Positions 43,013 through 48,294 of a stretch of 64,000 bases of DNA are shown piece by piece (position 1 is the stretch's first letter; the number at the start of each line of letters is the position of its first letter). The stretch comes from Bacteroidetes bacterium OLB9 (GTDB lineage: Bacteria > Bacteroidota > Bacteroidia > Chitinophagales > Saprospiraceae), in the NCBI GenBank assembly GCA_001567255.1, contig LNBW01000055.1, positions 1 to 64,000 on the forward strand, given 5' to 3'. A program made the translations under genes and the position numbers. A model generated the notes under the pieces. It was not told where the DNA came from. It did not search any database and saw only the letters and a program-made list of their open reading frames with translations.

Positions 43013-43085
43013 TGATCTGGCTGGGACTTGAACCCAGGGCCCATACATTAAAAGTGTATTGCTCTACCAACTGAGCTACCAGATC
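43013..43085 (-). tRNA. tRNA-Lys (anticodon TTT)
   Basis: The minus strand folds as a 73-base tRNA. The acceptor stem pairs GATCTGG with CCAGATC, the D arm has AGCTCAGTTGGTAGAGC, the anticodon stem ATACA/TGTAT holds the loop CTTTTAA with anticodon TTT, and the T arm is CTGGGTTCAAGTCCCAG. The discriminator base is A and the CCA end is not encoded. It reads AAA and AAG lysine codons. Confidence 0.95.
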
Positions 43086-43935: not shown

Positions 43936-44427
43936 TTAGTACAATATTGATTTGACCATTTTCTTTACTTGATCCTCGGTAAAATAATGGGTATTTCCAC
44001 CTATAAATGAGATTTCATTATTGCCCACTATCTTGACTATATAGAAATCATAACTTTTAGTACCATCGTCTTCTTGTTTTTCAAATATAAACCCATTATC
44101 AAATTCCTCAATGATTTTACTGAAAGCGGGATGCATGATCAATATTTCTTTGTGCTCTTGCTTTAGTTTCTTCAGATCTGCAGTATTGGCATCAGCCATA
44201 AACACTTGCACTTCATAAAATTTGCCATCAGAAATATTGACATTTGTTAGATAACCGCTTTGAGTTTGAGTGGCTTTAGCATCTGTAGGTGCTTTAATTG
44301 TATAGGGAATACCATATTTCATTAAGTCCATTCCTTCAGATTGCTGTTTTTTTTCTTTGCAATTTAGAAAGAAAAGTGCCAAAAACAGAAACACCAGAAA
44401 GTACTTTGTTTTATAAATACGTGCCAT
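43936..44427 (-). CDS. Hypothetical lipoprotein
   Basis: A 163-residue protein with a basic N-terminus and lipobox (FLVFLFLALFFLNC) followed by KEKKQQSEG. The mature part is a mixed alpha/beta domain with IPYTIKAPTDAKATQTQ, FYEVQVFMADANTADLKKLK and a C-terminal THYFTEDQVKKMVKSILY. I do not recognise the family with certainty. A -7 box lies 22 bases before the ATG. Confidence 0.72.
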   Translation of the reverse strand: MARIYKTKYFLVFLFLALFFLNCKEKKQQSEGMDLMKYGIPYTIKAPTDAKATQTQSGYLTNVNISDGKFYEVQVFMADANTADLKKLKQEHKEILIMHPAFSKIIEEFDNGFIFEKQEDDGTKSYDFYIVKIVGNNEISFIGGNTHYFTEDQVKKMVKSILY

Positions 44428-44449
44428 TACTGTTGAAATTTATACAGCA

Positions 44450-44457
44450 CAAAGCTA
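44450..44457 (-). promoter_or_regulatory. -7 box of the hypothetical lipoprotein
   Basis: On the minus strand it reads TAGCTTTG (TAnnTTTG), 22 bases before the ATG. Confidence 0.45.
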
Positions 44458-44688
44458 ATTTATTTTTTCGGAATAGGATTAAAAAGAAGAAATGTGAGCA
44501 TTTAGATTAATTTTTAAAGTATAAAAAATAAACTTTTGAAGAGATTTTTTTATAGTAAGCGATATTAGATACAACTATCTCAATACAACGCTCAATTTAA
44601 GCTATTTATAAATCAGAATAATATATATTATAAATAAAAAAATATTATTTATAAATAATTTTGTATTTTTTATGGTGTAATGTCATCA

Positions 44689-44696
44689 TATCTTTG
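44689..44696 (+). promoter_or_regulatory. -7 box of the candidate RNA
   Basis: TATCTTTG matches TAnnTTTG. A TTTTG lies 25 bases upstream (44659-44663), a little farther than usual for the -33 element. Confidence 0.45.
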
Positions 44697-44702
44697 TATT
44701 GT

Positions 44703-44866
44703 AAAGGAACAGCAAAAGGCAGTTCTTACATTTAAAAAGAAGATTTGAGTTTTGAGTTAAAATATTTTGTCAGAAAGGGATGAGATCCGGACTGACGGTG
44801 AGTTTTGGATATGTTTATGGGATTATAATTAGTAAATGGTCGCTGGGGGGCGACCATTTTTTTTTG
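44703..44866 (+). ncRNA. Candidate standalone small RNA, about 160 bases
   Basis: A -7 box (44689-44696) is followed, about 140 bases later, by a strong terminator, with no credible protein between and no same-strand gene nearby: the flanking genes on both sides are on the minus strand. An internal hairpin pairs GTCAG (44769-44773) with CTGAC (44792-44796). The region is less AT-rich than its surroundings. It could be a regulatory RNA or a 6S-like RNA; I see no SRP, RNase P or tmRNA signature. Existence is inferred from signals only. Confidence 0.45.
44834..44865 (+). terminator. Terminator of the candidate RNA
   Basis: AAATGGTCG (44834-44842) and CGACCATTT (44851-44859) form a perfect stem with a short G-rich loop, followed by nine Ts in all. 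Confidence 0.85.
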
Positions 44867-44923
44867 CGATTAAGTGACTTGTTCAGCCTAGATATTGCAG
44901 GTAATTGTAATTGAAATAGCAGA

Positions 44924-46375
44924 TTACAGATTCAAAAAGCCGATAGGCATTTGCCCTGACATAGGTGTGTAAAAGTGGCCAATATTAGGGAAAATCAATG
45001 CTAAATCAGACGAAGGAAGGCCATACCACAATGCTAATTCTGCAAAGTACTCATCAGTAGAAATTGTAGGTATGAGTACACCACCACCGACCTCCTGAGG
45101 GTTTGTATCATTATTGAAATTATTATTAGTCAATGCAAGAGATGGATACTGACCATAAATATTTTTTCCATTAACATCACCACCCATTACGAATACATTT
45201 GCTCCCCAAGCATGATCAGTACCGTTTCCGTTAGAGGTGAGCGTCCTTGAGAACTCAGAAAGTGTAAATGTAGTGACCTGATTAGCTACACCCATTTGTT
45301 CCAGTGCAGAATAAAAGCTATGCAATGCGCTATCAAGGATGCTTAGTAATTCTTCTTGGTTGTTCAATAGCTCATCGTGCATGTCCCATCCTCCAAATTC
45401 TACGAAGAATATTTGTCGTTTTACATTGAGGGTGTTTCTACCGGATATGGTTTTAGCCACCATTTGCATGCTCTGCGTAAAGTAGTGATCACCTTCAAAA
45501 GGTACATTGAATACTGGTGCATTTTCTATAGCAGTTGCAAAAAGTTCACTACCTTCAATAGCCGTTTTGATGGTTTTTCGATACGTGTTTTTAAATACAT
45601 TTTTATAGACTGGATTTACCATTCCGTTGATGGCTGCTGTCTGTAAATTGTGGAATAGCCAGTCCTCACTATTATAACCATATATGCCTTCACTGCCATA
45701 TTCAGGATGCAATGAATATTCTACAGTATTTTCACCACTTTGAAATACGTTACTCCCTGCGAGTGAAATATTCATTGATATTGTGTTATTAGGGTTTGCG
45801 GAGATCATAAGATCAGCCATTTTTCCGCCCCATCCTATGGATGACCTTTCGTGCGGTAGGCCAGTCTGCCATTGTTGTTGTTGATCAGAATGAGAGTAAA
45901 GGCCAAGTGGCGCAGGAACACTATTGTCATAATATTGAATTTTGTTCATCGGGCGAATCAGCGTTCCCACATTGGAAACAAAAGCTAGTTTTTCATTATC
46001 GAACAGCTGCTGCATATGGACAAGAGAAGGATGTAATCCAAATGTCCTTCCATCTCGATCAGGTATTTTAGGGTTAATGTTAAGCAAAGCATTCCTATTG
46101 AGTGCCATATTAGATCTGGTGTTGGCATACTGATTGTAAAATACATTATCATTGGGCACCAACATATTAAACGAATCAATACCTCCTGAAAACTGTATGC
46201 AAACTAAAGCTCGGTAATCTTCGGGAGTACCTCGCATGATTGATGAATTGAAAGATGCCGCCGCATTGAGTGACTTTAAGTTAAAAAGTGTCGAAAACAA
46301 AGTGGTAGCACCAATAGCAGCACAACTGGCTTCACCTAAAAATTTTCTTCGTGATATTGTTCTTTTATGACTCAT
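44924..46375 (-). CDS. DUF1501 domain protein with Tat-like signal
   Basis: A 483-residue protein of the DUF1501 family (alkaline-phosphatase-like fold, sulfatase relatives). It begins with a twin-arginine signal (TISRRKFLGEASCAAIGATT). Family motifs include RALVCIQFSGGIDSFNMLVP, HPSLVHMQQLFDNEKLAFV, GGWDMHDELLNNQEELL and FTLSEFSRTLTSNGNGTDHAWG; the last two hold likely metal-binding residues. It is probably folded in the cytoplasm and exported. DUF1501 genes are usually paired with DUF1800 genes, as here (33 bases apart); the shared function is unknown. Confidence 0.9.
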   Translation of the reverse strand: MSHKRTISRRKFLGEASCAAIGATTLFSTLFNLKSLNAAASFNSSIMRGTPEDYRALVCIQFSGGIDSFNMLVPNDNVFYNQYANTRSNMALNRNALLNINPKIPDRDGRTFGLHPSLVHMQQLFDNEKLAFVSNVGTLIRPMNKIQYYDNSVPAPLGLYSHSDQQQQWQTGLPHERSSIGWGGKMADLMISANPNNTISMNISLAGSNVFQSGENTVEYSLHPEYGSEGIYGYNSEDWLFHNLQTAAINGMVNPVYKNVFKNTYRKTIKTAIEGSELFATAIENAPVFNVPFEGDHYFTQSMQMVAKTISGRNTLNVKRQIFFVEFGGWDMHDELLNNQEELLSILDSALHSFYSALEQMGVANQVTTFTLSEFSRTLTSNGNGTDHAWGANVFVMGGDVNGKNIYGQYPSLALTNNNFNNDTNPQEVGGGVLIPTISTDEYFAELALWYGLPSSDLALIFPNIGHFYTPMSGQMPIGFLNL

Positions 46376-46407
46376 ATTCTATGTCTTTATTTAATTTTTG
46401 GAATGGG

Positions 46408-48294
46408 TTATTTAACACAGCTATAATCAGGTGAAATCATGAACAAGTATATAGCAAGACGAACTCTCCAGTACCTATATTCTTCTTCTTCATCCCAGTT
46501 AAAATAGAGTTGATTAAGTGTTTCTCTCATTACATTACGTGTTTCGTCAGAGAGCTGGCCATGGGTAAGTAAAATATCTAGTTCGTTAATAAGCGTTTCT
46601 GAATCATCTGCTATATTCTCAAGGTATGTTGCATCTAGGTAAACATTATCTGGATCATCAGGATAGGTTCCTTCCCAGCTATACATCAATGCCCAGCCTA
46701 GTCCGTCATAAATACTGTTAATATAACCTACTGAAGTGGCGGTATTGTGCAATTTAAACTCTGGAGCGACAAGGCCTAAAGCGGTGATTTCACCTACGGG
46801 TTGATAGTCAGGTAGATAAAAGTTGAAAACTGATGGCGATTCTAAAACGTGCTGTTTTGTAGCTGCTGACAGTGAAAAACCATTGAACCAATATCTATTT
46901 TTATCAGAGTAGGTAGGAAAGGCTTTGCACAAATGAGCATACCGAACAAAAGGTTCCCTAAGCTTGCCGGCAGCTGGATCTTCGTAATAATTTGTTCCAA
47001 TAGCCTCTTCATCTAGGAGAATCGCTTTGATTACTGCTTTCATATCACCACGTACATTTTGACCATTATTATTAAATGCAGCAGCTACTCGACTTACATA
47101 CGCAGGAGATGGGTTGGACTTAACAAAACGTTGAATCAGTCTATAAGCTACAAAAGGCCCTGTATTAGGGTGATTGAACAAATAGTCAATAGCGGCCTCG
47201 ATTTCAGCCATTCCGTCACCTGGAATTTCAATCACTGTACCATCATGCATTATTTTTGGTCCCGGTTCATGATTTTCTTCTGACATTGCCATTGGTACTG
47301 TTCTATCTATCAGATAGATATCATAACCAAAATCTGGCTCAGTCGGCCACCAGCAACACGTATTAGGTATAGTATCACAATATGATGGGTTATCGTCTGA
47401 CCAGCATATGCACTCTGCAGGATAAGGATCATCAGGGCATGGCAATACAGCTCCACCATGAAGGCCGGTCATGATTTTAGCCATTTCTTTTATATCTTTA
47501 TTAGTGTATGTAGGAATCGGTGCTCCACTTGCATCTAGCTTTCTGGTTCCATCTTGATTGAGTTCATATAAGCCTATAGTAAATAATTGCATCACCTCTC
47601 GAGCATAGTTTTCGTCAGGCCGGATATTGGCCAGCGTGTCTGTCTTATAGTTATTGAGGTGAGAGAGATAATATCCCATAGCAGGATGAGTGGTAACCTC
47701 CATCAAAATATCTCGATAATTTCCAAATGCATTTCTAACGAAAATGTCGTAATAGGAGGAAACCGCCTCCCCAAAACCAATTAGTTCAGAATTGACCGAA
47801 ACCACAAGTATCTGGCTCAAGGCATAAGCCATTTTTTGCCTTAGTTGATCATTGCCCTTCATATTGTTTTCCCACCATGCATAGTTGAAATGAAGCCCGT
47901 AAGGTCCATAAGCTTCAGGATCAGCAGTATAAATTTCATTCCATATCTCCTGCATCTTGGGTAACATCAGACTGGGCTGCCTTTCAAACTGATCTTCGAT
48001 CCATGCTTCATATCCCATTTCCATCACATCTTTGATGTCTTGTGAATTAGCACCTAGAGTAGCTTGTCCTAAAAACCGAGAGGCTTCCATCATTTCTGCG
48101 TTCAGCCCTGTTCCATTGACGGTGTTTTCCGGTAGCGCATTTTGTTCACTACTACTGGATGTGACTTTTACCCATGATGCACCTGCGCCAAAATAATTTC
48201 TGTTTGGTTGTGCTATCAAATAATTTATACAGGTAACGAATAAAATGAGTAAGATATATTTGTATTGAATGGTTTTCATATTGGATATCTTCAA
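46408..48294 (-). CDS. DUF1800 domain protein with Cys-rich insertion
   Basis: A 628-residue secreted protein. It has a signal peptide (YILLILFVTCINYLIAQ) and the DUF1800 domain: EASRFLGQATLGANSQDI, LRQKMAYALSQILVVS, NYAREVMQLFTIGLYELN, MKAVIKAILLDEEAI and REPFVRYAHLCKAF. A segment at about residues 296-330 carries at least seven Cys (PCPDDPYPAECICWSDD, then SYCDTIPNTCCWWP), not expected in this family and probably disulfide-bonded after export. The start at 48294 or the next Met (48279) both give a signal peptide. It lies between the DUF1501 gene and the discoidin-like T9SS gene. Function unknown. Confidence 0.88.
   Translation of the reverse strand: MKISNMKTIQYKYILLILFVTCINYLIAQPNRNYFGAGASWVKVTSSSSEQNALPENTVNGTGLNAEMMEASRFLGQATLGANSQDIKDVMEMGYEAWIEDQFERQPSLMLPKMQEIWNEIYTADPEAYGPYGLHFNYAWWENNMKGNDQLRQKMAYALSQILVVSVNSELIGFGEAVSSYYDIFVRNAFGNYRDILMEVTTHPAMGYYLSHLNNYKTDTLANIRPDENYAREVMQLFTIGLYELNQDGTRKLDASGAPIPTYTNKDIKEMAKIMTGLHGGAVLPCPDDPYPAECICWSDDNPSYCDTIPNTCCWWPTEPDFGYDIYLIDRTVPMAMSEENHEPGPKIMHDGTVIEIPGDGMAEIEAAIDYLFNHPNTGPFVAYRLIQRFVKSNPSPAYVSRVAAAFNNNGQNVRGDMKAVIKAILLDEEAIGTNYYEDPAAGKLREPFVRYAHLCKAFPTYSDKNRYWFNGFSLSAATKQHVLESPSVFNFYLPDYQPVGEITALGLVAPEFKLHNTATSVGYINSIYDGLGWALMYSWEGTYPDDPDNVYLDATYLENIADDSETLINELDILLTHGQLSDETRNVMRETLNQLYFNWDEEEEYRYWRVRLAIYLFMISPDYSCVK

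Follow-up and report, generated by a model that had tools for sequence, protein, structure and literature searches.

A tag-plus-hairpin module common to putative small RNAs of the Saprospiraceae and to some phages

The locus, its signals and its conservation in the genus

The locus raises the question of what lies on the plus strand between two minus-strand genes of Bacteroidetes bacterium OLB9, a lipoprotein-like gene (43936-44427) and a DUF1501 gene (44924-46375), in the 64,000-nucleotide stretch of DNA analysed here as a whole (the window). The earlier note had placed between these genes a standalone structured RNA, with a promoter box, a strong terminator and about 160 bases without a credible protein. 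The flanking genes are as it described. The DUF1501 gene and a DUF1800 gene adjoin each other (44924-48294, minus strand), immediately downstream of the RNA.

The TAnnTTTG box is present as TATCTTTG at 44689-44696 and is read as the -7 box of a Bacteroidota promoter from the sequence itself, from the alignment within the genus and from its occurrence upstream of related loci. It is preceded by a T-rich -33-like stretch (TTTTGTATTTTTT), the -33-like promoter element at 44659-44672 (plus strand) being TTTTGTATTTTTTA, and the same layout, TTTTTGTxTTTG...TATCTTTG, stands before dozens of related loci. The box with its flanks is found upstream of the first module in 37 of 125 loci, compared with 9% of control windows. 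Transcription is inferred to start near 44702-44704. At the other end, the terminator hairpin AAATGGTCGCTGGGGGGCGACCATTT with its T tract (44834-44866, plus strand) consists of a stem of 11 bp (44834-44859) and a run of T's after it; it was found by the terminator search, is supported by the covariation of this hairpin across the family, and is the only terminator in 44400-45000 (0.1 expected from shuffles). The transcript, with both ends inferred, would extend over 44703-44866 of the plus strand, as suggested by its conservation beside the lipoprotein gene in the genus and by its fold (z = -2.6 for the 166-nt RNA, with respect to shuffled sequences).

The GC content of the RNA region is 0.356, clearly above the 0.195 of the 5' flank and about equal to the 0.333 of the 3' flank, with a window mean of 0.38. 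The higher GC content reported for the locus is thus true mainly on the 5' side, because the 3' flank hardly differs and the RNA lies below the window mean. No conserved protein is found in the ~165 nt, and the 44-aa open reading frame of the window shifts frame in relatives.

In a nucleotide search of 60 relatives, several genomes of the same genus matched the region at 72-85% identity, and genomes of other genera matched a shorter portion at its 3' side. The lipoprotein gene is also the neighbour of the RNA in five further members of the genus (G004, G005, G006, G007 and G009). Their alignment has in common the promoter region, TTGAGTTTTGAGTT, the hairpin loop TGAGA and a 3' part that hardly varies. 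The TTGAGTTTTGAGTT segment, with the A/T-rich bases after it (44748-44765, plus strand), precedes the internal hairpin and is also found upstream of terminal modules in other genera. The hairpin itself (GTCAG...GGGATGAGATCC...CTGAC, 44769-44796, plus strand) has arms at 44769-44773 and 44792-44796 and an invariant UGAGA loop. In nine sequences from relatives the stem differs by compensatory changes, being GUCAG/CUGAC in the window, UGCAA/UUGCA in G006, GGUGU/ACACC in G003 and GUUGC/GUAAC in G008. Counted by hand, 42 of 45 cells pair, and double changes occur at all five positions. The GTCAG/CTGAC hairpin proposed from the window alone is confirmed, because the closing stem around TGAGA is kept by compensatory change.

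The tag and its hairpin

The strongest feature of the locus was absent from the earlier note. It is a near-invariant tag, GGATATGTTTATGGGATTATAATT at 44807-44830 (plus strand), an instance of a module in which a 22-letter tag (GGATATGTTYATGGGATTATAATTTG) is followed by a hairpin of free sequence. Across 215 distinct modules, about 20 tag positions (mostly -5 to +16) are 92-100% identical. These values are somewhat inflated because some modules were retrieved by the exact tag pattern; the same conservation is seen in the BLAST-found modules read in the first 25 genomes. Each of the 251 tag instances that have two mismatches or fewer is followed by a stable hairpin. In 23 terminal modules 95% of the hairpin cells pair, with double changes in 8 of 10 pairs, a level reached by none of 500 shuffles, and sliding the partners destroys the pairing.

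Modules often occur in tandem. Clusters of two, three or four modules, in which the modules mostly lie 92-200 nt from one another, make up 74 of the 125 loci. The window RNA has one module, and the two further loci of its own genome (C50:32885 and C52:21932) have two each. Final hairpins carry a U tract in 78 of 125 cases, and internal ones lack it in 74 of 88. Some multi-part loci (L014:511, L016:585, L018:890 and L022:841) contain a middle element in which a shortened tag, GTTCATGGGATTA, comes after its hairpin, so that the parts are the same but differently arranged. Contig L025, which carries a two-module RNA, has a match to group II intron D1D4 at 215-343 (34.4 bits, cutoff 32).

The tag might instead encode a tiny conserved peptide, MFMGL (ATG TTY ATG GGA TTA TAA). 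The five-codon frame is open in most modules, and the C/T variation falls on the wobble position of TTY. The third positions of GGA and TTA, on the other hand, are 97-99% fixed despite the possible synonymous changes, variant modules (GTTCATGGGTTATAAT) lose the stop or the frame, and several phage copies have no ATG, to which the frame shifts of the 44-aa frame in relatives may be added. With synonymous positions fixed and variants breaking the frame, a coding function is very improbable. Two of the outcomes that the earlier note named as refuting an RNA, a lack of conservation and a conserved short peptide, were examined and neither is met.

Occurrence in the family and in phages

A covariance model built on the module matches 213 of 248 genomes (~86%) and 99 of 112 genera of the Saprospiraceae. 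Outside the family it gives only two marginal matches in 395 genomes of the class and no more than two in 298 genomes of the order. Weak matches in G408, G771 and G786 were not taken as homologs; that in G408 covers the terminator only. The titles of contigs with the exact tag name Saprospiraceae, Saprospirales, Lewinella, Phaeodactylibacter, Flavilitoribacter or less precisely classified Bacteroidota. The module is present in a cultured relative, Flavilitoribacter nigricans (NZ_PDUD01000010.1). In one genus (g146) of another Bacteroidia family (f80), four species share a conserved 3'UTR, TTCATGGGTTATAGTTAGC, with a terminator, located after a divergent coding end (L043, L328, L329 and L330). 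Over 15-16 nt this copy has the same sequence as second modules in the genus of OLB9, and it may be a distant relative of the module.

The tag is also carried by IMG/VR contigs; searches of collected plasmid and phage records yielded nothing credible. Phage contigs with both tag and hairpin are L294 (at 6656), L342 (5827), L344 (2458), L341, L343, L345, L291 and L290. In L341-L345, L294 and L291 the tag lies 6-25 nt past the stop codon that closes a reading frame, and mostly a terminator-like hairpin follows. In L294 and L342 the module occupies an equivalent position, flanked by the tail-tube gene and the gene preceding the tape measure protein. Their tube proteins are 49% identical and the products of the next genes 37%; the 21-nt tag is identical, and the surrounding DNA and the hairpin sequence have diverged. 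Three other phage matches (L338-L340) are treated as chance because they lie inside a protein frame.

The phage copies, placed shortly after stop codons and followed by terminator-like hairpins, together with the U tract of the terminal modules, suggest that the module could be a cis element of 3' ends that protects or processes transcripts, the host RNAs being its stable by-products. We consider this unlikely. The host clusters are standalone, with the nearest upstream gene on the same strand 139 nt or more away (the two clusters with a shorter distance are both on phage contigs), the internal modules mostly lack the U tract, and in its pure form such an element ought to follow many host mRNAs. 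A repeat or mobile element acting at the level of DNA, which several copies per genome and the phage contigs might otherwise suggest, is scarcely tenable in view of the promoter box ahead of the modules, the covarying stems and, in genus members, the unchanged location next to the lipoprotein gene.

The comparison of genomes thus shows a conserved, covarying and modular family of predicted RNAs, almost wholly limited to the Saprospiraceae and shared with phages. With a promoter, a terminator, covarying hairpins and its retention in most genomes of the family, the standalone structured RNA proposed for the window is borne out, and the locus encodes a non-coding small RNA, ~165 nt long, a single-module member of this family, whose transcription remains inferred.

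Relation to known RNAs and a possible protein partner

The earlier note could assign the RNA to no class and had suggested a comparison with Rfam models, including 6S; its lack of a name holds. At the gathering score the only Rfam match in the window is a tRNA at 43013-43085, and no 6S covariance model matches the RNA. Like 6S RNA, including that of the Bacteroidota, it is a standalone gene with a promoter and a terminator, but it has no long hairpin with a central bubble. With relaxed thresholds the best match is FopS (RF04319), at 22.4 bits with E = 0.42. Membership in FopS was rejected, as this score is below the gathering cutoff of 56 bits and no pairing at start regions, susC included, was found; the FopS model also gave no match in 20 related loci at E values up to 0.5.

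Several traits are nevertheless shared with FopS/GibS, which are Bacteroidota sRNAs with paralogs in one genome, standalone promoters and a UUCAUGG motif upstream of an intrinsic terminator, and which have also been seen in a phage. The present family meets this layout (own promoter, motif and then intrinsic terminator, several paralogs per genome), and UUCAUGG...AUUA is common to both. It differs in a tag kept in ~100 genera, in the tandem modules and in that no start-codon pairing was found. In Bacteroides, the FopS sRNAs bind the RRM protein RbpB and, through start-codon pairing, repress the translation of susC (PMC11697453).

By analogy with this published mechanism, the tag could be an antisense seed that blocks translation starts of mRNAs, UUYAUGG pairing with CCAUGAA; the seed-like motif before a terminator, the shared letters, the paralogous loci in one genome and the rank of FopS among the below-threshold matches all speak for it. 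Targets were sought at 649 gene starts from ~0.86 Mb and by pattern counts in the whole genome. The complement pattern is not enriched (102 occurrences, 101 for the control), duplex energies at the 649 starts are no better than those of shuffled seeds, none of the near matches examined lies at a gene start, and pairing at SusC-like starts is unremarkable. In 10 genomes of the genus, no 12-nt complement was shared between orthologous genes, and the likeness of the motif to that of FopS is itself not significant (p ~0.12). The antisense function is therefore doubtful, if still conceivable. Recognition by a protein is favoured over it, because no long complement to the tag is present in its own genome, none recurs within the genus, and rRNA contains none.

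The best explanation, which we put forward tentatively in the absence of binding or transcript data, is a family of sRNAs whose module docks a host RNA-binding factor. RNA polymerase would start at the TATCTTTG promoter and stop at the intrinsic terminator, as inferred from the sequence. The working part would be the module, for which the comparison demonstrates a near-fixed tag of 22-24 nt and, directly after it, a hairpin with maintained pairing. Tag and adjacent hairpin would together form the docking site, and the RNA might carry, stabilise or titrate the factor, with tandem copies raising the valency as in CsrB/RsmZ sponges. Those RNAs titrate a protein, the motifs of CsrB being GGA in loops. 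In the tandem loci, though not in the single-module RNA of the window, short identical motifs linked to hairpins are repeated within a transcript-sized cluster, which resembles CsrB/RsmZ; unlike in CsrB, the motif is ~22 nt long and lies upstream of the hairpin, and no binding partner has been shown. Phages with the module after some of their genes would perhaps attract this factor or sequester it. The multivalency of the module in the host and its presence in phages are both compatible with an element for docking or titration. The identity of the locus as an RNA is well supported, whereas it is by inference that it is transcribed between the ends given above, that a protein docks on it and that it acts as a sponge.

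Among possible factors, RRM-domain proteins of the RbpB type come first. The genome of OLB9 encodes two single-RRM (RRM_1) proteins (L048, at G000:C32:22367, and L049, at G000:C79:158517), which are candidate partners with binding only inferred. Bacteroides ihuae, the control genome, has an RRM protein too, so that proteins of this type, not being specific to the Saprospiraceae, do not explain the restricted distribution of the module. Two further points count against docking: a 22-nt tag exceeds the length read by one RRM domain, and the predicted accessibility of the tag is just slightly above that of shuffled controls. It is possible, at a clearly lower level of confidence than docking as such, that the RNA is a global regulator throughout the Saprospiraceae, in which tag and hairpin would be a dedicated recognition code, used in the host as a multivalent sponge and taken over by phages, in the form of a 3'UTR module, to hijack the factor.

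No paper on Saprospiraceae small RNAs came up in a full-text literature search, and RNA regulation in Bacteroidota beyond Bacteroides is little explored. On the best reading of these comparisons, the family is a new, previously uncatalogued one, and an unusually conserved RNA, with a 22-nt tag that has been retained in ~100 genera of a family abundant in the environment, and with no entry in Rfam. The presence of the tag in most genomes of the family and in some phages suggests that it is recognised by an important, unidentified partner. The tag would be a ready bait toward an sRNA-binding factor of the Bacteroidota, and the phage copies may offer an independent handle on its role in infection.
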